DNA of 64,000 nucleotides from Corallococcus terminator (GTDB lineage Bacteria; Myxococcota; Myxococcia; Myxococcales; Myxococcaceae): contig NZ_RAVZ01000004.1 of NCBI RefSeq assembly GCF_003611635.1, positions 1 to 64,000 on the forward strand, read 5' to 3'. Positions 1,501-60,741 of the stretch are shown piece after piece. The notes under the pieces are model-generated. The model had not been told where the DNA came from, made no database searches, and was given only the letters and a program-made list of their open reading frames with translations. The position numbers and the translations under genes were made by a program. The stretch's first letter is position 1. Every line of letters begins with the position of its first letter.

Positions 1501-1522
1501 AGCCACACGGTGGAGAAATGAA

Positions 1523-1554: not shown

Positions 1555-1589
1555 CGCATGTCTTCAATTCAAGACATCAACTCAAGACA

Positions 1590-2987: not shown

Positions 2988-3021
2988 GAAGAGAGCTCCG
3001 GAAGTGCGTGGGGGCCTGGGA

Positions 3022-8753: not shown

Positions 8754-8870
8754 CGGTGCGGCGAGCGACGCGACGGGCTTTTGCGAGCGCCCGCACGGGT
8801 ACCGTCGGGCCGCGCTTCGTGGTCGTCTTGCGCGCGCAGGCCCCCCGAGCCCCTGTCGTGGTGTCCTCTT
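8750..8870 (-). pseudogene. Decayed duplicate of the 3' end of the histone H1-like gene
   Basis: On the reverse strand, starting from a TAG stop at 8750-8752, the sequence matches the last ~100 bp of the intact histone H1-like gene (10414 onward), base for base over long stretches, including the stop codon and the codons for the RRSPSKR tail. About 45 bp in, small indels break the frame, and similarity fades by about 8870. There is no 5' part. It is a partial duplication 1.7 kb from its parent, not an expressed gene. Confidence 0.7.
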
Positions 8871-8929
8871 CCTTCACGCCACTCCGTTGACGGCGTCGAG
8901 CCCGAGAAACGAGCAAGCCCTCTCGGGCC

Positions 8930-9517: not shown

Positions 9518-9526
9518 TTTCCACAC

Positions 9527-10300: not shown

Positions 10301-10413
10301 CGGCGCCGAGTATAGAGGCGGCGGTCGCAGCCACTGCGCGCGCCCTTGCGGCGCGGGGAGCGCGCATCCCTTCACGGGACGGCCACCCTCCCCACCTCCC
10401 GCCAGCGAAAGTC

Positions 10414-10854: not shown

Positions 10855-11014
10855 CAACAGCCTCCAGGTTCGAAAACACCTGGAGGGTACGCGCAACCGC
10901 ATGAAGTCAACCCATGCGCCCCCATGCAGATGCACGCCATCCAACGAATGCTCGCGTGACAGCCATCGCGCGAGGCCGAAAATCCGGCCCCGGCGCGCAC
11001 GGGTCAACGCTTCG

Positions 11015-12103: not shown

Positions 12104-12158
12104 GCGCGGCCCACCATACTCCCCGCCCCCGCCCACTCCCAGCACGCCGCCCGGGCGC

Positions 12159-12779: not shown

Positions 12780-12849
12780 TGGGTTCTTGGGACCGCGCAG
12801 GGTCACCGAGGTTCTATACGCGCCCCCGGCGACAGCGGATTTTCCGTCC

Positions 12850-13677: not shown

Positions 13678-13755
13678 GGGCCCGGGTTGAATCACACTTC
13701 AGCTTTTCGCGCCGCACCCGAGTGGCTTTCGTCCACCCCCGCCGGAAGCCCGGCC

Positions 13756-14061
13756 TCAGACGTGCGAAGCCCCCGGAATCAGGGCCAGCGGCAGGGTCTG
13801 GGTCGGGATTTCCCCGTGAAACATGGGGTCCGCCTTCGTCAGCGGGCCGGTGCCCTCGCGCAGGAGGACGGCGCCCTGGAGCACCCGTCCCACGGCGGAC
13901 AGGGGCACTTCCTTCCAGTGCCGGTTGAAGGGTGAGCGCCGGACATAGAGGTGCTCCTGACCGATGAGCGCCACGTAACCCAGCAGGGTCCCATCCGCGG
14001 CGCGCACGCGCATGCCGCTGATGATGGAGCGTCGTTCGAACGGCGTGTCGTCGAAAGCCAT
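13756..14061 (-). CDS. Small conserved-looking protein of unknown function
   Basis: This 101-residue acidic-to-neutral protein starts MAFDDTPFERRS. The middle (GMRVRAADGTLLGYVALIGQEHLYVR) resembles the two-stranded start of PRC-barrel/DUF2171-type domains, which carry a strand-turn-strand reading 'x-V-x-x-x-D-G-x-x-L-G-x-V'. There is no signal peptide or membrane span. It lies between dapD and the selenoprotein gene on the same strand. The PRC-barrel idea is a resemblance only. Confidence 0.55.
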   Translation of the reverse strand: MAFDDTPFERRSIISGMRVRAADGTLLGYVALIGQEHLYVRRSPFNRHWKEVPLSAVGRVLQGAVLLREGTGPLTKADPMFHGEIPTQTLPLALIPGASHV

Positions 14062-14182
14062 CGGTCGTCACCTCCCGTGGATGAGGCAGAGGAGGCAAAG
14101 GTGGGGACGACCGGGAGCGGACGCGAGTGGCCCCTGCCCGCCCGCCCCCCTTTGGGAGGAACGGGCGGAGGGGTCCGCCACG

Positions 14183-14419
14183 CTACGGACCCACGGCCTT
14201 CGCCACCGCGTCCACCACCTCCTGGTCGGTGGGGAATGCCAGACCCGCCTTGCGGATGACGACCCGGCCGTTCACGGCGACTTCATAGATGCCCGAAGAG
14301 CCCTTCTTCAGCTCTGCTTCCAACTCCAGCTCTTCCTTCAGCGCGGCCGCCGCACGGGCGGCCCTGGGGGCGTAGCCTCAAGCCGTGCAGTAGGTGATGG
14401 TCACCGTCGTCTGGGACAT
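14183..14419 (-). CDS. SelW/Rdx-type selenoprotein with in-frame UGA (Sec14)
   Basis: Read from the ATG at 14419 (AGGAGG 6 nt upstream) the frame gives MSQTTVTITYCTA, then TGA at 14378-14380, then continues uninterrupted for 64 codons to TAG at 14183-14185. Taking the TGA as selenocysteine yields a 78-residue Rdx/SelW protein: the redox motif C-T-A-U-G-Y-A-P (residues 11-18) matches the SelW CxxU-G-Y signature. It is followed by the typical helix (RAARAAAALKEELELEAEL), the IYEVAVNGRVVIRK beta-strands and the FPTDQEVVDAV helix. It is a small thioredoxin-fold thiol redox protein, presumably cytoplasmic. A GC-rich hairpin with SECIS geometry lies just after the UGA. A simple nonsense mutation is unlikely because the 3' part is intact and the motif position is exact. 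Confidence 0.85.
14345..14363 (-). promoter_or_regulatory. Candidate bacterial SECIS element
   Basis: On the transcribed (minus) strand, 14 nt after the UGA, lies GGCCGCC-CGUGC-GGCGGCC: a perfect 7-bp stem with a 5-nt loop. The loop begins 21 nt after the UGA and has G as its second base followed by U. Known bacterial SECIS elements sit in this distance window and carry a G in the first loop positions. It is within the coding sequence, as expected in bacteria. Confidence 0.7.
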
Positions 14420-14557
14420 GGAAGGCCTCCTGGCGTTTCGGAAGGTGCGCGGAGTGCGCACGCCCGGTCCCCCTTTGGGTAATTCACGCAGGGGTCCGGC
14501 GCCAGTCCCAGCAGGCGCGTTTCGCGTTCCACCGTCACCCGCTAGCCTGCGCCCGCC

Positions 14558-16015
14558 ATGACGACCGTTTTTGCGCCCTTGGAAGCCGCCTACGACCCGG
14601 AGGCCTTCCGGACCACCGCCCACACCCTGATGGACCAGCTCGCGGACTACCTGAAGGCCGCGCTGAAGGGGGGCGCGATGCCGGTGCTGCCTTGGGCCCC
14701 GCCTTCCGTGAACCAGGAGCGCTTCGCCACGCCCTTCCCGGAGGAGCCTCCCGCCGAACTGGCCCCGGCCTTCGCGAACCTCATGGCCCGCGTGCTGGAG
14801 GGCTCCCACCACCTGCACCACCCCCGCTACGTGGGCCACCAGGTGACGGCGCCGCTGCCGCTGGCGGCCCTGTGCGACGCCGTGTCGTCGCTGCTCAACA
14901 ACGGCATGGCCGTGTACGAGATGGGCCCGGTGGCCACCGCGATGGAACACCACGTGCTCGCGTGGATGGCCTCCAAGCTGGGCCTGCCGGAGGGCGCCCG
15001 GGGCGTGCTCACCTCCGGCGGCAGCGCGGGCAACCTCACCGCGCTGCTCGCCGCGCGCCAGGCGAAGGCCGGCTTCGATGCGTGGAACGGCGGCGCGCAT
15101 GCGGGCCCGCCCCTGACGGTGCTCGTTCCCCGCTCCGCCCACTACTGCCTGGCCCGGGCGGTCCGCATCATGGGCTGGGGCGAAGGCGGCCTCACACCGG
15201 TGGACGTGGACGCGTCCTTCCGCGTGCGGCCGGACGCGCTGGAGGGCGCGCTCCAGGAGGCCCTGAAGCAGGGGCGCAAGCCCATCGCGGTGGTGGCCAG
15301 CGCGGGCTCCACCGCCACCGGCGCCTTCGACCCGCTGGAGCCGGTGGCGGACTTCGCCGAAGAGCATGGCCTGTGGTTCCACGTGGACGGCGCACACGGG
15401 GCCGCCGCCAGCCTGAGCCCGAAGTACCGCGCGCAGGTGAAGGGCATCGAACGGGCGGACTCCGTGGTCTGGGACGCGCACAAGGGCCTGCTCATGCCCG
15501 CGCTGGTGACGGCGGTGCTCTTCCGCGACGGGGCGCGCTCCTTCGACGCCTTCTCCCAGGAGGCCCACTACCTCTTCCACGGCGACGACCCGCGCCCCTA
15601 CAGCGACGTGGGCCTGCGCACCCTGGAGTGCACCAAGGAGATGATGCCCCTCAAGGTGTACGCGTGCCTGTCCGTGCTGGGCACCCGCGTCTTCGAGGAG
15701 GCCGTCACCGCGTCCTACGACCAGGCCCGGCGGTTCGCGGCCATGCTCGCGGCCACCCCGGACTTCCAGGTGGCGCTGCCCCCGGACTGCAACATCGTCT
15801 GCTTCCGCCACACGCCCGCGCACGTGCCGAAGGAAGGCTGGGATGCCCTCCAGGCCCGCCTGCGGGAGGCGCTGGTCACCGGGGGAAATTTCTACCTGGT
15901 GCAGACGCGGCTGCCGGACGGGGTGTACCTGCGCACCACCCTCATCCACCCCCTCACCGGGGATGGGGACCTGGAGGCGCTCCTGGAGGCCCTCCGTCGG
16001 GCGGCGGGACCCTGA
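14558..16015 (+). CDS. PLP-dependent group II amino-acid decarboxylase
   Basis: This 485-residue enzyme of the aromatic-L-amino-acid/glutamate/diaminobutyrate decarboxylase superfamily has the main PLP-site features. These are GGSAGNLTALLAAR (phosphate region, ~150), the ring-stacking His in PRSAHYC (~193), HVDGAHGAAAS (Asp to the pyridine N, ~277), and WDAHKGLL with the Schiff-base Lys (~309). Substrate cannot be fixed from sequence; the HHLHHPRYVGHQV and CTKEMMPLK segments suit the diaminobutyrate/tyrosine-decarboxylase branch. It removes the alpha-carboxyl to give an amine and CO2 in the cytoplasm. It is followed 56 nt later by a glycosyltransferase gene, with no obvious functional link. 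Confidence 0.88.
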   Translation: MTTVFAPLEAAYDPEAFRTTAHTLMDQLADYLKAALKGGAMPVLPWAPPSVNQERFATPFPEEPPAELAPAFANLMARVLEGSHHLHHPRYVGHQVTAPLPLAALCDAVSSLLNNGMAVYEMGPVATAMEHHVLAWMASKLGLPEGARGVLTSGGSAGNLTALLAARQAKAGFDAWNGGAHAGPPLTVLVPRSAHYCLARAVRIMGWGEGGLTPVDVDASFRVRPDALEGALQEALKQGRKPIAVVASAGSTATGAFDPLEPVADFAEEHGLWFHVDGAHGAAASLSPKYRAQVKGIERADSVVWDAHKGLLMPALVTAVLFRDGARSFDAFSQEAHYLFHGDDPRPYSDVGLRTLECTKEMMPLKVYACLSVLGTRVFEEAVTASYDQARRFAAMLAATPDFQVALPPDCNIVCFRHTPAHVPKEGWDALQARLREALVTGGNFYLVQTRLPDGVYLRTTLIHPLTGDGDLEALLEALRRAAGP

Positions 16016-16071
16016 ATTTTGTGTGCAAGGGAGTCGCCCGGGGCCACGAAACGCGATAGGGGCGGGTCGCC

Positions 16072-16791
16072 ATGCTCGTCTCGCTCGTCATCCCCGTCTA
16101 CAACGAGATTCCCACCCTGGCGGAAATCCTCCGCCGCTGCATCGCCGTGGACTTCCCGAAGGAGCTCGTCCTGGTGGATGACTGCTCCAAGGACGGCAGC
16201 CGTGAATTCCTGCGGCAGCTTTCCGAACAGGGCCTGGCGCTCCTGGGGGGAAACCCGACGAACCGCAACGAAGTGCGCGTGCTCTTCCAGGACAAGAACC
16301 AGGGCAAGGGGGCCGCGCTGCGCCGGGGATTCGCCGAGGCCACCGGGGACATCATCCTCGTGCAGGACGCGGACCTGGAATACGACCCCCGGGACATCCC
16401 GCGCGTCATCCAGCCCATCCTGGACGGGGACGCGGACGTCGTCTTTGGCAGCCGGTTCATCGGTTCGCCGCGCCGGGTGCTCTATTACTGGCATACGGTG
16501 CTGAACAACCTGCTGACCATGCTCTCCAACATGACGAGCGGGCTCAACGTCACCGACATGGAAACCTGCTACAAAGCATTCCGTGCGGAGGTGTTGCGGT
16601 CCGTGCACGTGGAGGAGGACCGCTTCGGCTTCGAGCCCGAAATCACCGCCAAGGTGGCGCGCGGAAACTGGCGCGTGTTCGAGGTGCCCATCAGCTACCA
16701 CGGGCGCACCTACGAGGAGGGTAAGAAGATTGGATGGAAGGATGGCGTTCGCGCCCTCTACGCCATCGCGAAGTACTCCGTGAAGCGCTGA
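16072..16791 (+). CDS. Family 2 glycosyltransferase (dolichyl-phosphate mannosyltransferase-like)
   Basis: This 239-residue GT-A fold enzyme has LVIPVYNEIPTLAEIL at the N-terminus, ELVLVDDCSKDGS, KNQGKGAALRRGFAEATGD (nucleotide-sugar binding), and a metal-binding DADLEYDP (~98-105). The VVFGSRF and CYKAFRAEVL segments match bacterial polyprenyl-phosphate sugar transferases. No C-terminal membrane segment is present, so it is probably a soluble or peripheral enzyme making a lipid-linked sugar from a nucleotide sugar. The ATG at 16072 follows GGGGCGGGTCGCC, a weak ribosome site. Confidence 0.88.
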   Translation: MLVSLVIPVYNEIPTLAEILRRCIAVDFPKELVLVDDCSKDGSREFLRQLSEQGLALLGGNPTNRNEVRVLFQDKNQGKGAALRRGFAEATGDIILVQDADLEYDPRDIPRVIQPILDGDADVVFGSRFIGSPRRVLYYWHTVLNNLLTMLSNMTSGLNVTDMETCYKAFRAEVLRSVHVEEDRFGFEPEITAKVARGNWRVFEVPISYHGRTYEEGKKIGWKDGVRALYAIAKYSVKR

Positions 16792-17023
16792 AGGCCGCTC
16801 GGGCGGCCCGCCGGGACGCGACCGCGTTTCCCGGACTCCGCCCGCCTGGCTGCTGTCCTGGGGAGGATGCGGTCCATCCTCCAGGCGGCACGGCGGGAGT
16901 GCGGAGAATGGAACACAGCGGCCGCTATAGCTGGTTATCCAGCAGGCGGAACCCCAAGGTGCTTCCGGCTTTTCTTCCTCCGTATTGCGGCGCGTAGTAG
17001 TTTCGTCAACGCACTCCGTCTGA

Positions 17024-18103
<1,080 letters not shown>

Positions 18104-22895: not shown

Positions 22896-24206
<1,311 letters not shown>

Positions 24207-31076: not shown

Positions 31077-32279
31077 TCATTCGATTTCGAAGATCTTCTG
31101 GGGGAACTTGTGCAGTCTCTCAGCCGGCCCGTCTTCCTTGACGAGGAAGTTATCGCACACCCAGCTATAGGTGCGCGCGGTGGCGTAGGAGGGGTGGATC
31201 ACGATGTTCATGTTCTTCCGCAGGAGCATCGGCTCATCCGCGCGAATGAGGGGCCGCTCCACCATGTCGTAGCCCTGCCCGTGGCTGTGGAGCCTCCGCT
31301 CTTCAGGTCTGCCATTCTTTCGCATGAAGGCATTGTAGGCTTCGAAGAGTTCACGGGGCGAGGTGCCAGGCACGAGCCGGCTGCGCATGAAGTGCTGCGC
31401 CTCCAGCGCGAAGGCGAACTCTTCCTTCATCTCCAGAGAGGCATTGCCCAGCACGCAGGTGCGGCCCAACTCAGTGTACAGACCGCCGGGACCATTGTTC
31501 TCCACCAGGAGAGTAAACTGGTCACCCGCCTGTATCACCCGCTTCTGCAAGTGGCGGTTGGCGAAGATGGCCGACACACCCACCGGGGCCGACGAGCACA
31601 GGAAGAGGCCCTGCTCGCTCCCCATGGCATGACCAACCTGCTCGGCAATGGCAGCCACCTCAATGTCGCGCATGCCGGGCTGGATGGCCTTGAGCACCAC
31701 CTCCATCACCTCATCCTGCATCGCGGCGGTGCCCCGAATGAGCGCCAGCTCCTCTTCACTCTTGACGGACTTGATGGTGTCGACCAGATCCGAGGCATCC
31801 ACGAAGTTCGCTTTGGCGAGGCTGTTTCGCTTGAGGTAGTCCACCAGCGCGAACGAGATAGCAGCCGTTGCCACCAGACCCACCGTCCCCGTGGCGAAGC
31901 GCGCGAGCGCCCTGTCCGCGAGCACTGCGTCATACTCAGACGTGTAGAATGCGGACGCGAAGCTGGGAGAGCCCAGAAAACGTCGGGTGCCTCGGCGCAG
32001 GCCATCTCCCTCGGGTGGCAATTCCCTATCCAGGCCGAGCGCGCCCTGCGCAACCACCGTCATCGGCTCGTCTCTGGGGAAGATGACGGCCACGGGATAG
32101 CCATTGGTTGATGGCACATCAGTGAAGTACTTGACATACCCTCCCATGAAATCGTTATTTGACTGAATCAGCAGCACATCAATGTCTCGCTCGGCCATGG
32201 CGGCCCTCACCGCCGCCCAGCGCCGCTCCAACTCTACCGTGGAAATGGCCATATTGATGCGCTCACTGATATCAACCAT
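31077..32279 (-). CDS. M24-family (Xaa-Pro aminopeptidase/creatinase) protein lacking metal ligands
   Basis: The 400-residue protein has the N-terminal creatinase-like domain (1-150, MAERDIDVLLIQSNNDFMGGYVKYFTDVP) and a pita-bread domain (~165-400). The five metal ligands of M24 aminopeptidases are changed: the first Asp is Glu (LLVENNG), the second is Glu (YTELGRT), the Glu in the I-E-P motif is His (VIHPSY), and the last Glu is Cys (VCDNFLVKEDG). Only the His of HSHGQG remains. That points to a metal-free hydrolase of creatinase, ectoine-hydrolase or lyase type rather than a peptidase. The ATG at 32279 has AGGAGG upstream. It lies 209 bp downstream of, and in the same direction as, the PKS/NRPS genes, so it may belong to the cluster. 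Confidence 0.8.
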   Translation of the reverse strand: MVDISERINMAISTVELERRWAAVRAAMAERDIDVLLIQSNNDFMGGYVKYFTDVPSTNGYPVAVIFPRDEPMTVVAQGALGLDRELPPEGDGLRRGTRRFLGSPSFASAFYTSEYDAVLADRALARFATGTVGLVATAAISFALVDYLKRNSLAKANFVDASDLVDTIKSVKSEEELALIRGTAAMQDEVMEVVLKAIQPGMRDIEVAAIAEQVGHAMGSEQGLFLCSSAPVGVSAIFANRHLQKRVIQAGDQFTLLVENNGPGGLYTELGRTCVLGNASLEMKEEFAFALEAQHFMRSRLVPGTSPRELFEAYNAFMRKNGRPEERRLHSHGQGYDMVERPLIRADEPMLLRKNMNIVIHPSYATARTYSWVCDNFLVKEDGPAERLHKFPQKIFEIE

Positions 32280-32488: not shown

Positions 32489-35400
32489 TCAGCTCCGTGC
32501 GACGGGATGTCCCTCCAACACTGACTCCAAGTGCTTTACGAGGGAGCTCAAGTGGGGCTCGCGCAGCATGGTTGAGTGCGAGCCCGGCACGTCGATGCTT
32601 TCACAGGGGCCCTGTACGAGCCGCTGCCACGCAGGCGTCATGTCGGTGGTAGCGGAGGAGGCCGCGCGCAGCCCGGATGTCAGCGCCTCGCCTGCCCGCA
32701 GCACCGTCGTCTTCAGTGGGCAAGGTTTTGGCTCGTAGCCAAGGATGATCCGCGCGTTGCGCTCGAAATCCCGGTAGAGCTGGGAGAGGGCCTGGATGTC
32801 CAGGTCCTGTTCGACCGCACCCTTCGCCAACTCCAGGACGTGCCGGAGCCGTTCCCCGGGAGCCATCTGATCCAGCAGCGGGCGCTTCAGGGCCGCCACC
32901 AACGCTTCTCCGCCCACGTCGCTCGCGAACCACAACAACAGGCTGACGTCGTCGGCTCCGTGCTGCTGGTAGGCCTCGGGCGTCCAACTGTCCAGCAGCA
33001 CCAGCCGCTCGATCTCCTCCCCCGCCTCACAAAGCTGGCGCGCCATTTCATATGCGAAGATGCCTCCCGTGGACCAGCCTCCGAGCAGATACGGGCCGCG
33101 CGGCTGCACGGCGCGCACCTGCGCGAGGTACCACGCCGCCCGCTGCTCAAGCGTTTCGCAGCCCTCGGCAGGCGCTACTGCGCGCAACGCATAGACAGGA
33201 CGCCCACTTTCCATCTGGGTGGCTAGCGGGCCATAGCAGCTCACGTCGCCCCCCGTGGGGTGCATCAGGAAAAGGGGCGCTGCGCGGTCGCCCTGCCGCA
33301 GCATGATGAGCGGAGTCTGGGCCGGTTTCGGGGCGCGGTTCGCGTCCAGCATCCGCGCCTGGGTTTCGATGGTGTCCCCCGTCAGCAGGCTGGCGATGTG
33401 GAACTCCTGTGAGAACTCCTTGCGGATGCGTGCGATCAACCGCACCGCGAGTAATGAGTGTCCTCCAAGAGCGAAGAAGCCGTCCTGGATGCCAATCGGT
33501 TTTTTCTGGAGCAGGTCCTCCCAGATCTGCGTCAGTCGCAGTTCGGTCGGGGTGCTCGGCGCCACGTACTGGGCACGCTTGAGCGGCAGGCTCTCCACGG
33601 CCGGCAGGGCCTTGCGATCCACCTTTCCGTTGGCCGTCTGGGGGAACTGCTCAAGCATCACGAAGTCCGAGGGAACCATGGGCGCTGGGAGGCGCTTCCT
33701 CAGGAACGCTGCGAGGTCCTCGGAAGACACAGGACCGGCGTGTCCCGATGCTGGCGTCATGTAGGCGATGAGACGCTTGTCCCCCGAGGAAACCTCCCGA
33801 ACGACAACGACGACATCCCTCACGCGTGGGTGCTGGGCCAGGCTGCGCTCGATCTCCTCGACCTCGATCCGGTGGCCCCGGATCTTCATCTGCTGGTCGA
33901 CTCGACCGAAGAACTTCACGTGCCCATCAGGCAGGAAGCGTGCGTGGTCTCCGGTGCGGTACATGCGCGCGCCAGGACACCCGCTGAACGGGTCCGGCAG
34001 GAAACGCTCGACCGTCAGTGCTGGCTGGTCGTGGTAGCCGCGGGCCAGCCCCTCCCCTCCAATGTAGAGCTCGCCAATCACCCCCACCGGGACTGGCTGC
34101 TTGCGCTCATCCAAGATGTAGAACTGCGTATTGGCGATTGGCTTGCCGATGGTGATGGCGTCCTCGCCGTGGACACGGGAGGTGGACGACCAGATGGTCG
34201 TCTCCGTGGGGCCGTACATGTTGTGCAGCTCGCACGGCAGCGATGCGAGGTCCTTGATGATGGAGGGGGGCAGCGCCTCGCCACCCAGCATCAGCTTCCG
34301 CAGACCGCGCAGCGCGTCGAAGGTGTCCGGGTCCGTCACCAGCATGCGCGCCAGGGACGGCGTGCACTGCAGGTGTGTGACACGGTGGCGCCGGAGATTG
34401 TCAGCGATGGACTCGTCCGCCCTGGGCCGCGCATTGCTCGACTCGCGCAGCTTGTTGAGGTGCACCAGGCTGGCCAACACGTCCCGGGTTTCGACGCCAA
34501 AGTCGATGAGGCACGCCACCTCATCGACGCCCAAAGCCTTGAGCTGCTCAATGCGGGACAGACACGACTCGGGCGTACCGAACAGACCGATGTCGCGGAT
34601 GAAGCGCTCCACCGCCTTGGACAGCAGGAAGTCCATGTCCTGCTGCGGCAGGCCCTCGAAGGACGTCGAGCCCGCGAGTTCGCCGAGCGCCGCCTTCATC
34701 AGGTCCGCCGACCGCCGCAGGTACTCCGTGAGCGGGCCGGGCACCGTGCGCTGTACGAAGTCCTCGTCGTGCGCGACGAAGGTATGCATCATCAGCGTGA
34801 CGTGGCCGGGGCCGGTGTGACCGGCCGCCGCCCACGCCTCACGGTAGAGGCGCAGGTTCTTCTCCAGTCCATTAAGGTCCTGCCCGAGCAGGTGGGTCAG
34901 CAGGCCAGCCCCGCGCTCGCCTGCGAGCCGGTACGTCTCCGGGTTCCCCGCCGCAGTGAGGAAGTAGGGCAGTTCGGCCTGCACGGGCCGGGGTAGCGTC
35001 CGCACCTGCGTCGCTTGGCCGGTGCCACCGACGAAGTCCAGCGTTTCTCCCCGCCACAGGCTGCGCACGGTGTCGATGCCCTCGATCATCAGCTGCCGAC
35101 GCGCGGCGTAGTTCTGCGGCATGAGCGTGAAGTCGTCCGCGTGCCAGCCAGAGGCGAAGGAGAGCGCGACGCGACCCTGGGAAAGGTTGTCGACGATGGC
35201 CCACTCCTCCGCCACGCGGATGGGATTGTGCAGCGGCAGCACGACGCTGCCCGCCCGGATGCCCACGCGCTTGGTGGCTGTAGCCAGCGCCGCGCTCACC
35301 ACCGAGGGATTGGGGTACAGGCCTCCGAAGTCATGGAAGTGCCTTTCCGGCGTCCACACCGCCAGGAAGTCGTTTTCGTCGGCGAACCGCGCGCCCTCCA

Positions 35401-38400
35401 TCAGCAGCTCGTAGGAGCTGTCACCACCGGTGGCGCTCGCGAAGTAGAAGAGGCTGAAGTCGATGCCCCTGTCCCCCTGTTCGCTGAGCCTGGGTGCCGG
35501 ACCGCGCGAGGACGTGGGTGCGAGCTGCAGGGGGCTCTGGAGCACCACCCGGAAGCCGCGAGCCAGCGTCCAGAACAGCTCCAACACCGAGATGTCGAAG
35601 GAGATGCTGGTGACAGCCAGCCACGTCCCCGGCTCGCGACCGAGCCGCTCGTCCATGCCGGTGAAGAAGTTCGCCACGTTGCGGTGGGTGACCTCCGTGC
35701 CCTTGGGCCTCCCCGTGGAGCCCGAGGTGTAGAGGATGTACGCAAGGTGGTGGCCGCGAGCGCCCGAGGCGAGGTTGTGGCCGGGAGCCTGCTGGAGCGA
35801 CACCCGCTCCGCGTCGAGCCAGACCCTGTTCACGCGCGCTCGCGACAGCAGGTGCTGCGCGCCGTCCCCCATGATGAGCACCCTGGCACCTGAGTCCTCC
35901 AGCATGTGGGCCAAGCGCTCCTCGGGATAGGTGGGATCCAGCGGTACGTAGGCCCCTCCTGCCTTGAGGATCCCCATCAGCCCCACCATCATGTCGATGG
36001 AGCGCTCCAGGCACAGCGCGACGAGCGTCTCGGGTCCCACGCCCAGCCCCCGCAGCCGGTGCGCGAGCTGATTGGCTCGCACGTTGAGCTGCGTGTATGT
36101 GAGCTGCTCCTGCCCGAAGATGAGCGCCACGGCGTCCGGGGTGCGCTCAACCTGGGCCTCGAACAACTCGTGGACGCACTGCTCGCGCGGGAAATCCACC
36201 GCCGTGTCGTTCCACTCCAGCAGCAGTTGGCGCTGCTCCTCCTCGCTCAGCAGCGAAACCTCCTGGATCCGCAGCGGGGGCAGCTCGCCGAGCGGGCGCG
36301 CGGGGTCGCCCTCGATGGCATCGAGGACCGCGCCGAAATAGCGCGCGTACCGTTCAACGGTCTCCCGCTTCCACAGCGCCGCGCAGTAGGCGATGCGGAG
36401 GTCCAGCGTGCCCCCGGCCTCGATGACCTCCAGGTTGAGATCATAGGGCGTCGCCCTGCGTGCGATCGGCACCTCACGGAGCGTGAGCCCGGGCAGTTTC
36501 ACGGCCATGCGCTCCTCCGCGTGCTCGTAGGAGAACATGACGTCGAAGAAGGGGTTGTACCCGTGGCCACCCACCTTCAGGCGCTCAAGGATGACGCCCA
36601 GGGGGAAGTCCTGGTGCTCGTTGGCTTCAAGGCAGCGCCGCTTCACTTCGGCGAGCAGTTCGCTGAAGGTGGCGTTGGCGCCCACCGAGACACGCACGGG
36701 CAGCGCGTTGACGAACATGCCCACCGCATCCTCGAAACCGCCTCGCTGGCGTCCAAGCTGGGCCGTGCCGAGGGTGATGTCACGCTGTCCCGTGAGCCGT
36801 TGCAGCAGCGTGTGGCAGGCGGCGAAGAGCACCATGTAGACGGACGCGCCATACTCGCGGGCCCGTATGCGCAGCTGCCGCGAGGGACGACGCAGGTGAA
36901 TCTCTCCGCCCTCGAAGCGCTGCACCGCGGGCCTGGGGAAGTCGAGCCACAACTCCAGGCGCGGCACTTCGTTCGAGAACCGCTCGCGCCAGTAGCGCTC
37001 CTGCACAGCCGCCCCGGACCGCAGGTACTTCTGCTCCCAGGTGGCGTGCTCATGGCCCTGCCGCGCCACTGGACTCAGCGCCTCACCCATGTAGAGCGCG
37101 ATGAACTCGCGCACCACGAGCGTGGTCGTGGTGCCATCCGCGGTGATGTGATGCATGTCGAAGGCCAGCACATACCTCTCCTCCTCCACCCCCAGCAGCC
37201 CCACGCGAAGGAGCGGAGGGCTCGCCAGGTTGAAGGGACGGATGAACCGCCTCAGCCATCCGTCGATGTCCGTGCCCGTAGCGTGCTCGAGCTCCAGGCC
37301 CGCCGCCGGGTGGACACGCTGGACGAGCCGCCCGTCGTCGTCCATCACGAACGTGCTGCGCAGGGCCTCGTGTCGCTGGAGGATCTCCCGGAAGCACGCC
37401 TCCACGCGGGTCGCGTCCAGGGCGCCGCGAACCTCCCAGGCACCGTGGTTGTGGTAGGCCATCTCCCCGTCTGGGAACTGGCACTGGAAGTAGAGACCGC
37501 GCTGGATGAAGGACGTGGGGTGATCCACCGGCCCGCCCGCCAGTGCCGGAGGAGGCACCGACACCGGAAGGGCGTGCGGTGCGGGGCCGCTTCTGGAGGG
37601 ACGAGGCCCGGGCGGAGGGGCGAACCCGGCCGCCATCATCTCGTCGATGCTCTCCGCCAGCGCGGCGCTGAAGCGGCGAATGTCCTCCTCCGTGTGAGCG
37701 GTGGAGAGAAAGAGGTTGCGCCCTTCCCACACGTAGACGCCCTTGCTCAACAGCCGATAGTAGAGGAGTTCCCAATCCCCCTTGAGTTCGAGGCGGAAGA
37801 GCGATCCGAAATGCACGACACGCACGGGAGCGCCCACACGCACGAAGTGCGCGTTGAGTTCGCTGGCAAGCGCGGCGGTCCTGTCATTGAGCCGCCGCTG
37901 CAAGCTGGGGCCCTCGTCACGCAAGTGCCGCAGCACCGCGCGCGCCGCGGCCAGCGACAATGGATGGTGACAGAAGGTACCCGCGACGAAGGTGTTCTGC
38001 ACCTTGGGGCCCGAGTCATCCCCGAAGCGCCAGGCGCCGCCGTCCACGGCATCCATGAAGCGCCGCGCGCCGGCCACGATGCCAATGGGCAGTCCGCCGC
38101 CAATCACCTTGCCGTAGGTGGACAGGTCGGCGCGGATGCCGAAGTGAGCCTGCGCGCCCCCTGGCCCGGTACGGAAGCCGGTGATGACCTCGTCGAAGAT
38201 GAGCGCCACCCCAGCGTCGGCGGTGATGCCGCGCAGTTCCTCCAGGAAGCTCCGGGGCTGGTGGTCCGGGCGCCGGCTCTGCACGGGCTCCACCAGCACC
38301 GCCGCGATGTCCGTGGCATGCCGGCGGATGACCTCGAGCGAGGCCGGAGCGCCGTACTCCAACACGATGGTGTCGCCCGCCATGCCCCGGGTCGTCCCTG

Positions 38401-41400
38401 GCGCCAGCGGCAGGCCCCGCAGCGCGTCGTCGGCGTCGGAGACCGCCAGCACTCCATCGAAGGTGCCGTGGTACGAGCCCGCGAACGTCACCACCTTCGA
38501 GCGGCCTGTGACAGCGCGTGCCAGGCGCAGCGCCACCATCACCGCTTCGGTGCCGGTGTTGTAGAAGGCGACCCGCTCGACGCCGGTGGCCTCGGCGAGC
38601 ATCATCGCCACCTCGCCCGGTAGCGGCGTCATGGGTCCAAGCGGCGCGCCTCGGTTCAGTTCCTCGGCCACGGCTTCGGCGACGAAGGCCGGGCGGTGCC
38701 CGAAGAGGAACACCCCGAAGCCCATCGTCATGTCGAGGTACTCGTTGCCGTCGACGTCCCAGACCTTGCTGCCCTCCGCGCGCGTGACGTGGAGGGGATA
38801 GATCATCTCCTTCCAGGACGACCGGAACCCAGCCACCGCACGGTTGTTGGCCACCGTGGGCCGGGTTTCATCCGCCAGGCGCTTCGAGCCCGGCGTGAGC
38901 GTCGTGAAGTCACCGATGAGCGTCTTCAGGAACAAGCCCTGACGTGCGTCCAACTCCGGGTCGCGGTGCGTGTTGATTCGCCGGTACGGCACGAATGCCT
39001 TCGGAGCTCCGGGCACTCCGGGCACGTCCACCGGCGCCGCCGTACCGGGTGTCGGCACGGGCCGCGGCTCTGTCTTCGGGGCGGGGGCACGGGGTCCCGT
39101 GGAGGACGCCTCGCCACCGACCTGCCGCAGCAGCGCGAGCTGGTCCGCGACGATGCGCTCCATCACCTCTCGCGAACCGCCCCCTCCCGTTCGTAGCAGT
39201 GTGAGTTGGTCCGCGACGATGCGCTCCAGCCCTCCTGACGAACCGACCCTGTCCTCCGCCAGTGGCAGGGGCTGGGCGGCCCGTCCCTCCGCGTCCGGCG
39301 TGAGGGTTGGAGTCTCTTGCGGAGTCGGCTCGGGCGGCATCATCTGGTCCAGGAACAAGGCCATCTTCCTGACGGTCGATACCTCTGCCTCGAAGGCATT
39401 GATGGGAATGAGCACACCGAAGCGCCGCTCGATGACCTTGCGCAAACTGAACAGCGCCAGCGAGTCCACCCCGAGCTGGAACAGGTCGTGGTCTGCGGAG
39501 AACTCGCCGGATGAATCGCCCATGAAGCCGCGGATCAGCTCGCTCAGCTCCGTGAGCAGGGTGGCCTCGCGGGCAGGGGCCGGCGAGGGCGCGTTGCCGC
39601 GGACCGCGGTGGGTTCCCGCTGAGGCAGCAGCGCGGGCGGAGGGACCGTGGAGGAATGGGAAGCCGGTGCCTGCGTCAGCGTGGGCGGGGAGACCTCAAG
39701 CCAGTAACGCTCCCGTTGCCAGGGATAGTTCGGCAATGAAACCCGCCGCCCTCCAGCGCCAAGGACGCCCGCCCAGTCCACCTGGAATCCGGCGCACCAC
39801 AGAGCACCCAATGCGTCCAGCATGCTCGCCGCCTCGTCGCGACCAGTGCGCAGCGAAGCAACCAAGGCGAGCTGCTCTTGGGGCAGGCTGGCGGTCACCA
39901 GACCGAGCAGCGTCGGCTTCGGGCCCAGCTCGACGAACGTCGTCGCTCCAGCCTCGCGCAGGGCCCTCACCCCGTCAGCCATCCGCACCGTTGTGTGCAC
40001 GTGGCGCACCCAGTAGCCGGGCTCCCGCGCCTCTTCCGTGATCAGCCTGCCACTGACGTTGCTGACCAGCGGAAGGGAGGGGCTCTGGTAGGTGATCGAT
40101 TCGGCCACGCGCCGGAAGGCGTCCAGCATCGGCGCCATGAGGGGCGAGTGGAAGGCATGCGACACGCGAAGCCGCTTGGTTTTCACTCCACGGGCGGCGA
40201 AGCCCCCGGCGAGCTCCTGCACAAGCTCTTCATCGCCGGAGATCACCACCTGCTCCGGCCCGTTGACTGCTGCGATGGATACCTTCCCCGCCTGGGGCGC
40301 CAGCGCGGGGGCCACTTCGCCCTCCGACGCGGCGATCGACACCATGGCGCCGCCAGAGGGCAGTGCCTGCATCAGTCGTCCGCGCGCGCCCACCAGCCGC
40401 ACCGCGTCCTCCAGCGAGAAGACGCCCGCCACACAAGCGGCCACGAGTTCGCCCAGACTGTGGCCCGCGACCAGTTCCGGCACCACGCACCACGAACGCC
40501 ACAGCGCTGCGAGCGCGTACTCCAGCGAGAACAGCGAGGCCTGGGTGTACACCGTCTGATCCAGCAGCGCTGCATGGGCGCTGCCTGGCGCTGCCCACAT
40601 CACTTCGCGGAGTGGCTGCTCAAGCTCCTTGTCGAAGAGCGCGAAGCAGCGCTCGAGCGCCTCGCGGAACACCGGCCACGTTTCGGAGAGGCCCCGGCCC
40701 ATGGCCGTCACCTGCGACCCCTGCCCGGTGAAGAGGAAGGCCAGCTTGCCACTCCGAGACGCGCTCGTGTCACGAGACACGCCCTGGGGTTTCTGTCCCC
40801 GTGCCACCGCCACCAGCGTCGCCCTCAGCGCCTCGCGCGAGGTGGCCGTCACGGCCAAGCGGTGCTCCATGGGACCGCGCGTCGTCGCCAGGCTGAAGGC
40901 CAGATCTCCGAGGCCGACCTCCGGCTGGGTCTCCAGGTACTGGCCCAGCCGCGCGGCCACCGCCTCCAGCGCCTTCGGACTCCGGGCCGACAGCACCATC
41001 AACTCCGCCCCCCGCGGCGGCGCAGCGATTGCGGGCTCCACCAGGGGAGCCTCCTCCAGCACCACGTGTGCGTTGGTGCCGCTCAAGCCGAAGGAGCTCA
41101 CGCCCGCCATACGCGGCCGGTCCGTCCGAGGCCAGGCCAGTGGCTCGGTGGCCAGGATGAGCGCGCTGCCCTCCAACTCGATATGCGCGTTGAGCCTGCG
41201 AAAGTGGAGATTCTTCGGGATGCGACCGTGCTCGAGCGCGAGCACCGCCTTGATGAGGCCAGCGATGCCCGCCGCCGCTTCCAAGTGTCCGATGTTGCTC
41301 TTCAGTGCACCCAACACACAGCGTGAGCCATCGGGCCGCATGCCCCCCAACACGTCCCGGAGTGCCTGGACCTCGATGGGATCGCCCAGCGAGGTGCCCG

Positions 41401-42420
41401 TTCCGTGGGTTTCGACGTAGCCAATGGCGTCTGCTTCGACGCGTGCGTCGCGCAGCGCATCACGCAGCAGCGCCTGCTGGGCAAGGACATTGGGCGCCGT
41501 GAGTCCCGTCGAGCGACCATCCTGGTTGATGGCCGAGCCGCGGATGATCGCCCAGATGCGGTTGCCATCCCGCCGCGCGTCACTCAGGCGCTTGAGAACG
41601 ACCAGGCCACACCCCTCTCCCCGGACGAAGCCGTTGGCCGAGGCATCAAAGGTACGGCAGCGCCCGTCGGGAGAGAGGGCCTGGGTGCGCGCCAGCCCCT
41701 CCATCAGTACGGGAGAGAGAATCATGTTCACCCCGCCCACCAGCGCCAGGTCGCTCTCACCCGAGCGCAGGCTACGGCAGGCCAGATGCACGGCCACCAG
41801 CGATGACGAGCACGCGGTGTCGATGGTCAAGCAGGGCCCCTGCAGCCCCAGCGCATAGGAGAGCCGCCCGGCGGCGATGCTGAGCAGGTTGCCCGTGGTG
41901 CTGTAGGCGTCCTGCTCCTCGTTCGGCTGGCGCGTGACGCTGTCCGAGTAGTCCTTGGAGCAAGCGCCGACAAACACCCCGGTGCGACTGCTGGAGAGTG
42001 CACCCGGCGGGATGCCGGCGTCCTCCAGCGCCTCCCAAGCCACCTCCAGCAGCAGTCGGTGCTGGGGATCCAGCGAGCGCGCCTCGCGGGGCGGAACGCC
42101 AAAGAAGGCCGCATCGAAGCCGTCCACGGGCTCCGTGAGCAACCCCGCCCAGCGCGGCACGCCCGCACCCGGCTGGCTGCCCACCAACGCCCAGCGAGGC
42201 TCAAGCGGCTGGACCGCGTCCCGGCCCGCATCGAGCAGTTCCCAGAACGTCCTGGGGGCGTCGGCGCCGCCGGGTAAGCGGCAGCCCATCCCGACGATGG
42301 CAAGTGGCTCATGCTGCTGCTGCTCCACCTGTTCGAGGGACGCGAGCCGCTCCTCCAGCCGCCGGATGACGACGGCGGCCTTCTTCAATCGCTCCTGTTG
42401 TGCGCCAGTGCTGGGAGCAT

Positions 42421-42424
<4 letters not shown>
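32489..42424 (-). CDS. Hybrid PKS-NRPS: KS-AT-ACP-AMT-C-A(MOX)-PCP-TE
   Basis: The 3311-residue megasynthase starts at the ATG overlapping the previous gene's stop (ATGA at 42421-42424). Domains (approximate residues): docking coil 1-35; KS 40-470 (Cys in DTACSSS ~204); AT 570-880 (GHSLGE; HAFH, malonyl type); ACP 950-1030 (GVDSL). A linker with a duplicated [12 protein letters not shown] follows. Class III aminotransferase 1130-1590 (PLP Lys in [10 protein letters not shown] ~1437); condensation 1630-2050 (HHITADG); adenylation from 2080 (A3 [10 protein letters not shown] ~2235). A luciferase-like FMN monooxygenase is inserted at ~2310-2655 between A4 and A5. PCP ~2988 (GGHSL); thioesterase 3035-3311 (GWSTGG). 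Substrate-pocket residues read D-I-L-Q-M-G-M-I-W-K, close to glycine codes. No KR: the beta-ketone is the substrate for amination. Confidence 0.93.
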
Positions 42425-51444
<9,020 letters not shown>

Positions 51445-51457
51445 CTCGATGTGCTCC

Positions 51458-52261
51458 TCACCGGGCAACCTTTTCATCCAGCCAAGCCGCGATGTCTGCA
51501 ATCACCCGTTCAGTCCCAGGCTCATCGACAATCCAATGGGCATGGTGGGCATACTCCAGGTACTTTCCAATCTGCCTGTATTTGTCTGCCACCAACCGCT
51601 GTGTCTCGATAGGGATGACCCGGTCCCTCGCCGCTCCGATCGTCAAGACAGGCACCTCGATGCGCGCCTCGTCGACGTACCCGGTCCGCTGGGGATCCCG
51701 GGCACGGTAGAACAGGTCCTGGTAGACGAGGCCCGAGTCGTAGCAGGTCCCTTCATAGAGACGCGCATGCCGAGCGCGCGGAACACAGTTCAACATCCCC
51801 CAGCTGAATCCTGCCTTCCAGAAGCGGTGTGCACGTGCCTCGGGCCTTAAGCTATAAAGGATGTTGGCAAAGATGAACCGAGGGGCCAGCGTCGCCTTGC
51901 GCGGGAGGCCCGAGGGCGCGGTGGATGCCAACAGCACCACCGCGCGGGTCATGCCTCGCTCCGCGAGCTTCTGCGCCAGGAGCCCCCCCATGGAGTGTCC
52001 GAAGACAATCGGCAACCGCCCCGTCTCCGCCCTGAGCCGGCGCGCCTCCAAGTCCATATCGTCCACATAGTCGGCCAGCCTTACCCCTAAGAGCTCAGCG
52101 GGCGGAGCACTGCCCAACCGAAGGTGGGGCCGCAGCGTCGGCGTTTCCACGCGCCAACCGACTTCCCGGAAGTGACCGGCCATGCGGCTCCATACCTCTC
52201 CCGTGCACCCCACCCCATGAACCATCAAGATGGCGCCCCTGGCACCCGAACGCTCTGTCAT
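51458..52261 (-). CDS. Alpha/beta-hydrolase, first gene of the PKS/NRPS operon
   Basis: This 267-residue hydrolase has the oxyanion HG in LMVHGVGCTGEVW, the nucleophile elbow GHSMGG (~100), an acid in IGAARDRVIP (~220) and His in YAHHAHWIVDEPG (~243), a complete Ser-Asp-His set. There is no lipase lid or signal peptide. The start is the ATG at 52261 with GAGGTG upstream. It lies 13 nt before the PKS gene, so it is co-transcribed. Possible roles are an editing (type II-like) thioesterase or a tailoring hydrolase; sequence alone does not decide. Confidence 0.85.
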   Translation of the reverse strand: MTERSGARGAILMVHGVGCTGEVWSRMAGHFREVGWRVETPTLRPHLRLGSAPPAELLGVRLADYVDDMDLEARRLRAETGRLPIVFGHSMGGLLAQKLAERGMTRAVVLLASTAPSGLPRKATLAPRFIFANILYSLRPEARAHRFWKAGFSWGMLNCVPRARHARLYEGTCYDSGLVYQDLFYRARDPQRTGYVDEARIEVPVLTIGAARDRVIPIETQRLVADKYRQIGKYLEYAHHAHWIVDEPGTERVIADIAAWLDEKVAR

Positions 52262-52450: not shown

Positions 52451-52554
52451 CGCCTTATGGGGTGGCCTCCCCTGCGTCAGGCAGATGTGAAGAAGCATCG
52501 GAAGCAGGGCGAGGACGGCGGAGCGCGGTCACCTCTCCGCGAAGCGGAAGAAGG

Positions 52555-52830
52555 AGGCCGTGCTCCGACAGGGGAACCGCAAGGCGCGGGCTCGGTACCG
52601 TCTGCAGGGCGTGCGCACATCGAAGGTCCGCTGCCTGCGGCTGATGCACCATGCGGGGCTGCTGGCGCCAAGCCAAGCCCGACGCGTGCTGGGGACTCGC
52701 TTCGAAGCCCCCAAGCCCATTCTTCAGGGCGTCAAGGCCCGCTTCGGTGCGTACGACTGACGGTGTCGCCCCGGGCCTGGCCATCCGCCACGCCAACGGC
52801 AGCCAGTACACCTCCGACGCCTTCCAGCCT
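52555..52830 (+). pseudogene. IS3-family transposase (OrfB) remnant
   Basis: Two out-of-frame pieces of an IS3 integrase-type transposase are visible. One reads YRLQGVRTSKVRCLRLMHHAGLLAP (about 52590-52670), the other GLAIRHANGSQYTSDAFQ (about 52775-52825), the latter being the segment around the second catalytic Asp, here changed (HANGSQYTS where HDHGSQYTS is typical). Intervening and flanking parts are lost. The remnant separates the biosynthetic operon from asnS. Confidence 0.75.
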
Positions 52831-52935
52831 GAACGACCTTGCCTCGGGCGGCAGGCGGACTCCCGGGTGAAGTCGCTTGCCTCGGCGCCTGCCTGCGGCT
52901 AAGGGCGCTGTGGGTTTGCGAAGGGAGCGAAAGGC

Positions 52936-54336
52936 ATGCAGGTCATTAGTGTAAAGAAGGCGCTGGATGGGTCCATCGGACCGGACGCCAAGGTCGAGGT
53001 GCGCGGCTGGGTGCGTACCCGTCGCGATTCGAAGGCAGGACTCAGCTTCATCCATCTGAGCGACGGCTCGTGCTTCGCGCCCATCCAGGTGGTGGCCTCC
53101 AGCAACCTGCCCAACTACACCCATGAGGTACTGCACCTGACAGCAGGCTGCTCGGTGGTGTGCCGCGGCACGTTGGTGCCATCGCAGGGCAAGGGCCAGT
53201 CCTTCGAGGTGCAGGCCGACGAGGTGCAGGTCTTGGGCTTTGTGGAGGATCCAGACACCTACCCCATCCAACCCAAGCAGCACTCGCTCGAGTTTCTGCG
53301 GGAAGTGGCCCACCTGCGCGTGCGCACCAATACCTTCGGGGCCGTCGCGCGCGTTCGTCATGTCGCTGCCCAAGCCATCCATCAGTTCTTCAACGCGGAG
53401 GGCTTCTTCTGGGTCAGCACTCCCCTCATCACCACCAGTGATGCCGAAGGAGGCGGACAGATGTTCCGCGTCTCCACGCTGGACGCTGTCAATCCAACGC
53501 GGACCGACAGTGGGAAGATTGACTGGAGCAAGGACTTCTTCGGCAAGGAGGCCTTCCTCACCGTTTCCGGTCAGCTCAATGTCGAGGCCTACTGCCTCGC
53601 ACTGTCCAAGGTCTACACCTTCGGCCCGGCCTTCCGCGCGGAGAACTCCAACACCACGCGCCACTTGGCAGAGTTCTGGATGATCGAGCCGGAGATTGCA
53701 TTTGCCAACCTTGACGAAGACGCGGCGCTGGCCGAGCGCTTCCTCAAGTACGTCTTCAAGGCAGTGCTCACCGAGTGTGGCCCCGAACTGGCCTTTTTCG
53801 AGGAGCGCCAGCAACAGGGTGGCATTGCTCGCCTGGAGAGCTTCCTGAACACCAGCTTTGAGCGGCTGGAATATACCGAGGCCATCGAGATCCTGAAGAA
53901 GGCGCCCCGCAAGTTCGAGTACGCGCCGGAGTGGGGCAATGACTTGCAGACCGAGCACGAACGCTACCTGACCGAGGAGTACGTGGGGCGCCCCGTGGTG
54001 GTCGTCAACTACCCGGAGAAGGTCAAGTCCTTCTACATGCGCCTCAATGACGATGGGAAGACGGTCGCCGCCATGGACGTGCTCGCCCCGGGCATCGGCG
54101 AAATCATCGGCGGCAGCCAGCGCGAGGAGCGGCTGGACGTCTTCGATAGACGCCTTCATCAGTTCGGCCTCAAGCCCGAGCACTATCATTGGTACCGGGA
54201 TCTGCGGCGCTACGGCACGGTGCCGCATTCGGGCTTCGGACTGGGCTTCGAGCGGCTCATCGTCTATATGTGCGGATTGCAGAACATCCGCGACGCCATT
54301 CCCTACCCGCGCGTCCCGGGTTGGGCACTCTTCTGA
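52936..54336 (+). CDS. asnS: Asparaginyl-tRNA synthetase
   Basis: This full-length 466-residue class IIb synthetase attaches Asn to tRNA-Asn. The OB-fold anticodon domain spans ~1-100 ([24 protein letters not shown]). In the catalytic core, motif 2 is in [25 protein letters not shown] (~233-257) and motif 3 in [12 protein letters not shown] (~433-444), with the conserved [12 protein letters not shown] and the ISSGxQ-like [14 protein letters not shown]. All key residues look intact, so it should be active. The ATG at 52936 follows GGAGCGAAAGG. It stands alone among IS remains, back-to-back with the PKS/NRPS operon. It could be the sole housekeeping enzyme or an extra, drug-tolerant copy protecting against the cluster's product. 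Confidence 0.95.
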
Positions 54337-59355: not shown

Positions 59356-60741
59356 CTACGCTTCGGGGACCCGCAGGTCGCGCGAGCGCAACAGCATCGC
59401 GGACGCGGTGGCGGGGGCGAGCACCGATGCGGCGATGATGCACCAGTCCCACGGCCCCCGGGCCCGAGCCGCGTTGAACGTCACGGCCTGGACCAATGTC
59501 AGACAGGCATCCACGGTGGTGAGCCGCCCCAGCAGCGTGGCCAGTCCATCCCGCCAGCGGCGCATCAGGAGCAGCAGGCCCGTGACGAGCCCCGCGTCGA
59601 ACAGCACCCAGCCCCACTGCACCCAGGGCGAGGGGAACCACCGGGCACTCAACGGCAGTGCGAGCAGCACCGTCCACGGCACCAGCAGCGCGGTCAGCGT
59701 GCGCACGAAGAAGCGGGGCCGGCGCAGCAAGGTGACGAGCCCGAACTTCACCAGGCTGCCCCGCGCGAACGCTCGCAGCGCGTCGTAGACAGCCCACGCA
59801 GCCGGTTCATCCGAGGGGTGGGAGAGGAACAGGGGCACCCAGGCGTCGGGGCGGAACTTGGCCTTGAAGGCGCGCAGGCCCTCGAAGTCGAACAGGGGGC
59901 GGCCAGCGTTGCGCGCGAATCGCAGCCAGGGACGCACCGGGCCTGAAAGCGGCGCCAATCCCAGCGTCACGTACCGGCGGCCGTTCGCCGCGGCGGCGCG
60001 CATCGCCGCGTCCACCAGGGTCTCCGCGGTGCCGTTGGGCGCGGAGGGTTCGCGCAGCAGGTCCTGGAGGAACCAGCCGTCGCGCGCGAACACGGGCGTC
60101 ACGGAGAGGAAGCCCACCACGCGGCCCTCGACCTCCGCGACGAAGGCCCTGCGCTCACGGGCGAAGGCGTCCGGGGCCAGTCCCACCAGGAAGCCCATGG
60201 TCGCCATCCGCCGGGAGTCCAGCCAGTGCTCGGCCAGCACCTCCACCGCCTCGCGCAGTGGATGTCCCGGCGTCTCCATCACCTCCGCGGGCACCTCGCG
60301 CACGCGGACGGCGTGGGCCCGGGCGCGGCGCAGTTGTTCACGCAGGCTGCGGCTGCCGCGCACCACCGTCTCCCAGTTCGCCGGATCCCACACCGGCTGC
60401 TCGCCAATGGGCAGCTCGTGGAAGGGGACGAGCTGGGAGAAGCGGGACTCGGTGGCGAAGAAGCTCACGCGACGGCCCGCGCTCCGGGCCGCCTGGTGGA
60501 AGCCCTCCACCAGCGCCCGCACCCGCTCCGGCGCGGCGATGGGGCCGCCTCCCGCCACCCACGCGCCGCCGGTGTCCACGTACGCCACGCACCCGTCGCC
60601 GGCTGGCGCGAACCAGTAGCGGAAGCCCGGTTGCAGCACCTGGAAGGACGTCGCGTTCCAGCCGTGGCGGCGCAGCAGCGCCAGCACCCGTTCGCGTTCG
60701 TCCTCCACGCCTGGGGCGGAGGGGGGAGAAGAGGCGGTCAT
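59356..60741 (-). CDS. DUF2156 (MprF/LPG-synthase-like acyltransferase) protein with C-terminal membrane helices
   Basis: The 461-residue protein has, over residues 1-320, the GNAT-like DUF2156 domain found at the C-terminus of MprF phosphatidylglycerol lysyltransferases: FQVLQPGFRYWFAP, GPIAAPERV, EHWLDSRRMATMGFLVGL, GRVVGFLSVTPVF, DLLREPSAPNGTAETLVDAAM, LFDFEGLRAFKAKFRPDAWVPLFL. Residues ~335-455 add about four membrane helices, so the order (enzyme then membrane) is reversed from MprF. It probably transfers an aminoacyl or acyl group to a membrane lipid. Its 3' end lies 35 bp from the IS21 edge. Confidence 0.85.
   Translation of the reverse strand: MTASSPPSAPGVEDERERVLALLRRHGWNATSFQVLQPGFRYWFAPAGDGCVAYVDTGGAWVAGGGPIAAPERVRALVEGFHQAARSAGRRVSFFATESRFSQLVPFHELPIGEQPVWDPANWETVVRGSRSLREQLRRARAHAVRVREVPAEVMETPGHPLREAVEVLAEHWLDSRRMATMGFLVGLAPDAFARERRAFVAEVEGRVVGFLSVTPVFARDGWFLQDLLREPSAPNGTAETLVDAAMRAAAANGRRYVTLGLAPLSGPVRPWLRFARNAGRPLFDFEGLRAFKAKFRPDAWVPLFLSHPSDEPAAWAVYDALRAFARGSLVKFGLVTLLRRPRFFVRTLTALLVPWTVLLALPLSARWFPSPWVQWGWVLFDAGLVTGLLLLMRRWRDGLATLLGRLTTVDACLTLVQAVTFNAARARGPWDWCIIAASVLAPATASAMLLRSRDLRVPEA

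Follow-up and report, generated by a model that had tools for sequence, protein, structure and literature searches.

In a 64,000-nucleotide stretch of the Corallococcus terminator genome (assembly GCF_003611635.1, contig NZ_RAVZ01000004.1, positions 1 to 64,000 of the forward strand; the window hereafter), a transposon-bounded island carries a polyketide synthase/non-ribosomal peptide synthetase (PKS/NRPS) assembly line next to a gene for asparaginyl-tRNA synthetase (AsnRS), which we call AsnRS2 as it is the second such gene in this myxobacterial genome of 10.35 Mb. On balance, we lean towards the view that the island encodes a line for an asparagine-mimicking beta-amino amide, with AsnRS2 as the putative self-resistance. 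The end group predicted from the domain order, CH(NH2)-CH2-CONH2, is well founded. It is equivalent to asparagine with the carboxyl swapped for a longer chain, so the product should occupy the asparagine pocket of AsnRS. The line predicted to make this end group and the only AsnRS duplicate in our sample of genomes share one locus. The end-group logic and the link to AsnRS had both been put forward in the initial annotation of this DNA and are supported here, whilst its description of the remainder of the chain, R, as a branched alkyl group is not.

The assembly line

Two coupled megasynthase genes on the minus strand, neither with an internal stop, encode the line. ORF1 (42421–51444; 3,007 aa, starting with ATG) is a PKS with the domain order MT-AT-ACP-KS-AT-DH-ER-KR-ACP, where MT is a methyltransferase, and ORF2 (32489–42424; 3,311 aa), whose start overlaps the ORF1 stop (ATGA), is a PKS/NRPS hybrid with the order KS-AT-ACP-AMT-C-A[MOX]A-PCP-TE, where AMT is an aminotransferase and MOX a monooxygenase. 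Judged by sequence, the acidic tail at the C-terminus of ORF1 appears suited to dock with the coiled coil at the N-terminus of ORF2. The catalytic motifs checked are intact in both KS domains (DTACSSS/HGTGT/NIGH), the three AT domains (GHSxG), the DH, ER and KR domains, the AMT (catalytic lysine), the C domain (HHITADG), the TE (GWSTGG), the three ACPs and the one PCP. Every domain claimed in the initial annotation was found in its place, and that observation is confirmed.

Extension module 1 in ORF1 (42559–48876, minus strand) has the order KS-AT-DH-ER-KR-ACP, and thus the full set of reductive domains; its AT has the motifs VASH and GHSMGEVAAAHVAG, the methylmalonyl-type pattern. Module 2 in ORF2 (39347–42310, minus strand) consists of KS-AT-ACP without a KR, and the HAFH motif of its AT is of the malonyl type. 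The rules that relate these AT motifs to specificity are well established. Module 2 is followed by the AMT, a mycosubtilin-type class III aminotransferase (37595–38899, minus strand; Pfam Aminotran_3), whose best solved relative is the AMT of mycosubtilin MycA (PDB 6kfm; E = 3e-160, 537 bits). The arrangement is that of a MycA/McyE-type module: a pyridoxal phosphate-dependent class III enzyme with its catalytic lysine, placed after a KR-less KS-AT-ACP and before a C domain. Because module 1 is fully reducing and module 2 has no KR and is followed by the AMT, the intermediate expected from the sequence would be R-CH2-CH(CH3)-CH(NH2)-CH2-CO-ACP. The beta-amine logic of the original proposal is backed by the close match to the MycA enzyme.

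MycA and McyE have the same KS-AT-ACP-AMT-C order. They differ in placing their beta-amino acids inside long peptides; in the present line a single module follows the AMT and would be given up to form an amide. The nearest relatives of the AMT (66–72%) also lie in long lipopeptide-type lines of the order KS-AT-ACP-AMT-C-A, found in Sorangium cellulosum So0157-2 (L075), in G078, apparently Hyalangium versicolor (L104/L105), and in a further genome, G072 (L106/L107); a MOX-TE end was not seen in these lines with the closest AMTs.

The terminal module and chain release

The remainder of ORF2 comprises, all on the minus strand, the C domain (36224–37519), an A domain (33623–36163) interrupted by a luciferase-like flavin mononucleotide-dependent MOX (34445–35458; TIGR04020, E = 1.2e-144), and the PCP and TE (32522–33538). 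The MOX is inserted between motifs A4 (FDISVLE) and A5 (NMYGPTE). Read by hand alignment of motifs, the A-domain pocket has the code DILQMGMIWK, which indicates glycine as the predicted substrate. Two other lines have the same code in their terminal modules, save for one or two conservative substitutions. Their architecture, A-oxidase(nitroreductase)-PCP-KS-AT-DH-KR-ACP, KS-AT-MT-KR-ACP, KS-AT-MT-ACP, C-A-MOX-PCP-TE, is that of myxothiazol D–G (mta), and it is by this architecture rather than by name that they were recognised. When 27 MOX domains were placed in a tree, that of the window, on a long branch, came out as sister to both mta-type terminal modules (support 95/91).

A MOX between A4 and A5 of a glycine-activating domain leads to a C-terminal primary amide in myxothiazol and melithiazol, whilst in solanimycin the MOX lies between A8 and A9 and the alpha-hydroxyglycine is retained (PMC10204066). 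By its insertion site and clade the window MOX therefore matches the myxothiazol/melithiazol case and not that of solanimycin. The module shares with MtaG and MelG the order C-A(MOX)-PCP-TE with the MOX between A4 and A5, the glycine code and the terminal position, in addition to the sister relationship of the MOX. MtaG and MelG differ in acting on a bithiazole methoxyacrylate chain, whereas the window module would be fed a beta-aminoacyl chain made by the AMT, and the window C domain is only about 28–32% identical to the C domains of the mta-type lines. The idea that glycine and MOX together yield an amide, part of the initial annotation, is supported by the shared glycine code and by the clade in which the MOX falls.

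Other arrangements of these domains were seen. In two loci (L108 in G078, 9556–13446; L154 in G018, 489–4337) a luciferase-like MOX comes immediately after an AMT and is itself followed by C-A; the MOX domains of these cassettes form a separate deep clade, and the arrangement differs from that in the window. At locus L152 (G013, approximately 8747–17691) a glycine-type C-A(MOX)-PCP is followed by KS-AT-KR, so that the MOX module stands mid-line. Loci L006–L008, L012 and L013 are similar, and this MOX clade is common to several genomes of the genus; loci of the L152 type should be useful for judging when a glycine-MOX module cleaves. The source genome has eleven matches to TIGR04020, the strong ones mostly within very large NRPS/PKS frames, and interrupted A domains appear to be common in the genus.

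Chain initiation

The MT-AT-ACP loading module of ORF1 and a hydrolase gene (51458–52261, minus strand) were omitted from the initial annotation, which described R loosely as a branched alkyl chain; the loading module points rather to a carboxylate or methyl-ester terminus. At the N-terminus of ORF1 lies an S-adenosylmethionine-dependent methyltransferase (50515–51444, minus strand; Pfam Methyltransf_11), followed by an AT and an ACP (48922–50290, minus strand). The motifs of this AT are of the malonyl type (HAFH) and include the position of the carboxylate-binding arginine. Judged by sequence motifs, the loading module contains neither a decarboxylating KS-Q nor a GNAT domain. Since nothing present decarboxylates malonate, the carboxyl of a malonyl starter would be capped by the methyltransferase, and we consider it rather probable, by analogy with the system described next, that the starter is malonyl capped as its methyl ester, giving R = (Me)O2C-CH2-.

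Methyl-ester capping of malonyl-ACP is a proven mode of PKS initiation with paired esterases: in aurantinin biosynthesis Art28 methylates malonyl-ACP and the esterase Art9 frees the acid (PMC8302727). The window locus is alike in having a predicted malonyl starter without a decarboxylase, a methyltransferase at the loading step and a separate hydrolase that may be an esterase. It differs in that Art28 is free-standing in a trans-AT system, whereas here the methyltransferase forms the N-terminal part of a cis-AT loading protein and does not fall clearly in the Art28 clade. The hydrolase gene starts with ATG at 52261, has no internal stop, lies 13 nt upstream of ORF1 and is probably the first gene of the operon. 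It encodes a 267-aa alpha/beta-hydrolase (Pfam Abhydrolase_6) with the nucleophile motif GHSMGG, a candidate methyl esterase that could play an Art9-like role; its neighbours in the PDB, all weak matches, are monoacylglycerol lipases and bromoperoxidases.

The second AsnRS

AsnRS2 (52936–54336, plus strand; 466 aa; TIGR00457) scores 655 bits against PRK03932 and is a true AsnRS, and it is the candidate resistant target. The initial annotation had placed an AsnRS gene beside the operon and did not mention that it is a laterally acquired second copy. The gene is there, and its relevance is heightened by its being a duplicate, on the same island as the operon and of foreign composition. We rejected the notion of a mere housekeeping neighbour, as a further copy, 79% identical to AsnRS2 and evidently the housekeeping one, lies on contig C190 and relatives have a single copy. 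At E ≤ 1e-100 an AsnRS was found in 179 of the 195 genomes of the phylum that we sampled, with two matches in the source genome only. The closest relative of AsnRS2 (85%) is from another genus (g8). The G+C content at third codon positions (GC3) is 0.83 for AsnRS2 versus 0.97 for the housekeeping copy; the corresponding values are 0.85 for ORF2, 0.88 for ORF1 and 0.78 for an M24-family gene of the island, with the measured flanking genes at 0.88–0.97.

The coding sequence of AsnRS2 is intact and its ratio of non-synonymous to synonymous substitution (dN/dS) against relatives is 0.11–0.18, from which we infer that it has been retained as a functional gene under purifying selection. The catalytic residues, the OB-fold anticodon domain and the full class II core are kept. 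The locus thus pairs biosynthetic genes with an intact extra copy of an essential enzyme, the candidate target, its functionality judged from sequence evidence. Among 341 positions invariant in 19 relatives, 25 are altered in AsnRS2, against 3 in the housekeeping copy. Several of the changes are located in the active site or next to it. Two of them, A167T and A173G, fall in the flipping loop around a glutamate presumed to be the equivalent of E279 of human AsnRS, which contacts asparagine (PMC10831071). T232A lies two residues ahead of the motif 2 arginine, where the solved AsnRS structures displayed have threonine or serine, and A432S lies in motif 3. Adaptive evolution of AsnRS2 was also considered on the basis of dN/dS and found unsupported: the ratio is ordinary, with dN and dS both high.

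The mobile island

The island (29290–59340) comprises everything between two flanks that lie next to each other in relatives. The flanking genes (22896–24206 and 59356–60741) lie on one contig, 0.3 to approximately 9 kb apart, in the 15 relatives of the same genus. In alignments with four of these relatives both flanks are close together and the insert is absent, and at L148 and L149 the sequence at approximately 28.4–29.3 kb of the window joins that at approximately 59.34 kb directly. As the flanks are adjacent in relatives, some 30 kb has been inserted at this site, and the island of about 30 kb is a horizontally acquired, transposon-bounded element. Its transposase pieces are of the IS66, IS3-like (a remnant), IS701, IS5/IS1182 and IS21 types. 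Besides these, the recognised genes are only the hydrolase gene, ORF1, ORF2, AsnRS2 and the M24 gene. The last of these (31077–32279, minus strand), 209 nt downstream of ORF2, encodes a pita-bread hydrolase resembling creatinase or ectoine hydrolase with a degenerate metal site, in which, by alignment, a ligand aspartate reads glutamate and a ligand glutamate reads histidine.

No close relative of the whole cluster was found, and a search of plasmid DNA matched only short PKS or aminotransferase stretches. The locus is best read as a singleton cluster, a novel combination built from known parts.

A proposed pathway

Combining these elements, the loading AT would place malonate on the first ACP and the N-terminal methyltransferase would cap the free carboxyl as a methyl ester. 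Module 1 would add methylmalonate and reduce it fully, and module 2 would add malonate with its ketone left in place, which the AMT, going by the reactions of its family, would convert to the beta-amine. The C-A(MOX)-PCP module would then append glycine, and the MOX, again going by its family, would hydroxylate the glycine alpha carbon; the resulting carbinolamide would break to give the primary amide, with the TE clearing the glyoxylyl stub. Removal of the methyl ester may fall to the hydrolase encoded upstream. The predicted product is HO2C-CH2-CH2-CH(CH3)-CH(NH2)-CH2-CONH2, the corresponding methyl ester or the delta-lactam to which it could close, and AsnRS2 would sustain translation in the producer. 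In its complete form this proposal would describe the first asparagine antimetabolite from an assembly line: a beta-amino amide primed with a methyl ester, aminated by the AMT and released at the cost of a glycine, its distal carboxylate free or masked, which would block AsnRS by mimicking asparagine or Asn-AMP and against which a resistant AsnRS would be borne by the cluster on a transposon-bounded island. We put this complete form forward tentatively, as falling a little short of an even chance.

Alternative explanations

The start of the chain is a less certain part of the proposed pathway. The best NCBIfam profile for the loading methyltransferase is indeed the malonyl-ACP O-methyltransferase BioC, but the resemblance is weak (E = 1.7e-14; 54 bits under a cut-off of 185); no further match at E ≤ 1e-20 was found among the 195 genomes, and the genome of Brevibacillus formosus, a species reported to have an Art28 homologue, contains no methyltransferase close to it. 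The hydrolase is not specifically BioH-like. Art28 itself is only 19% identical to a BioC (PMC8302727). It is possible, if doubtful, that the methyltransferase instead C-methylates malonyl-ACP, or that another acyl starter is used, so that R would be a branched alkyl or acyl group without a carboxylate, and other roles for methyltransferases in PKS initiation do exist, such as that of LynB2 (PMC10127204). Such a start fits poorly with the malonyl-type AT and its arginine position, with the lack of KS-Q and GNAT domains, and with the Pfam ranking of the methyltransferase first as Methyltransf_11, whereas the in-module methyltransferases of the mta-type line match Methyltransf_12 best. At the other end of the chain, the glycine could be kept, intact, oxidised or as alpha-hydroxyglycine, with the TE freeing an acid, to give a beta-amino-acyl-glycine derivative. 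The retention seen in solanimycin and the related module of the same genus at L152, whose line continues into further modules, are compatible with this outcome; we regard it as quite improbable given the A4–A5 insertion as in mta and mel, the PCP-TE ending and the sister relationship of the MOX to the mta type.

Granting that the beta-amino amide is made, its target may lie elsewhere, in another enzyme that uses asparagine or a beta-amino acid, or the compound may act as a signal or chelator, with AsnRS2 a passenger moved by insertion sequences. AsnRS2 is transcribed divergently from the operon, with the IS3-like remnant (52460–52860) between it and the hydrolase gene and IS701 right after it, on an island crowded with such elements, and it could have arrived separately, which is the principal weakness of our reading. 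The long branch of AsnRS2 may likewise reflect an unsampled donor lineage or age rather than adaptation, as its synonymous divergence is high too, and A173G and A432S also occur in other natural AsnRS; these points count against a resistant enzyme matched to the product. Nevertheless, we judge the passenger explanation rather unlikely: leaving transposase pieces aside, nothing but the operon, the M24 gene and AsnRS2 is present on the island, none of the other 178 AsnRS-bearing genomes in the sample has a duplicate, and a GC3 lower than that of the flanks is common to AsnRS2 and the megasynthases. A biosynthetic role, in which AsnRS2 would supply Asn-tRNA to a tRNA-dependent aminoacyl transferase that adds asparagine to the product, seems very remote. 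Paralogues of aminoacyl-tRNA synthetases do act in some pathways, and AgnA of agrocin 84 is a truncated AsnRS homologue (PMC4392301), but AsnRS2 retains its anticodon domain and class II core, and we found no gene for a tRNA-dependent transferase on the island.

Implications

There is good precedent, among other inhibitors of aminoacyl-tRNA synthetases, for self-resistance through an additional synthetase. MupM is the resistant synthetase copy in the case of mupirocin. Agrocin 84 relies for self-resistance on the spare synthetase AgnB2 (PMC4392301). Both systems are like the present one in that mobile DNA carries the biosynthetic genes together with an extra copy of the synthetase under attack, and differ in that the leucyl (agrocin 84) and isoleucyl (mupirocin) enzymes are protected rather than AsnRS; no case of AsnRS self-resistance in a described cluster was found in the literature searched. 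The natural inhibitors of AsnRS are few. Tirandamycin B, rishirilide B and WS9326A congeners, described in tests with the Brugia malayi enzyme, share the target, but none is a small asparagine-shaped amide, and nor is any other natural AsnRS inhibitor found in that literature shaped like asparagine. AsnRS is under current study as an antimalarial target (PMC10831071).

The predicted product formula and masses are specific enough to be searched for directly. The calculated [M+H]+ values are 189.123 for the acid (C8H16N2O3), 203.139 for the methyl ester and 171.113 for the delta-lactam. If our reading is correct, the locus would provide a small, asparagine-shaped scaffold for AsnRS inhibitors, together with a ready-made resistant enzyme that would show how the inhibitor is told from asparagine. 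It would also represent a compact recipe for making beta-amino amides, consisting of a capped malonyl start, transamination and the sacrifice of a glycine to form the amide.

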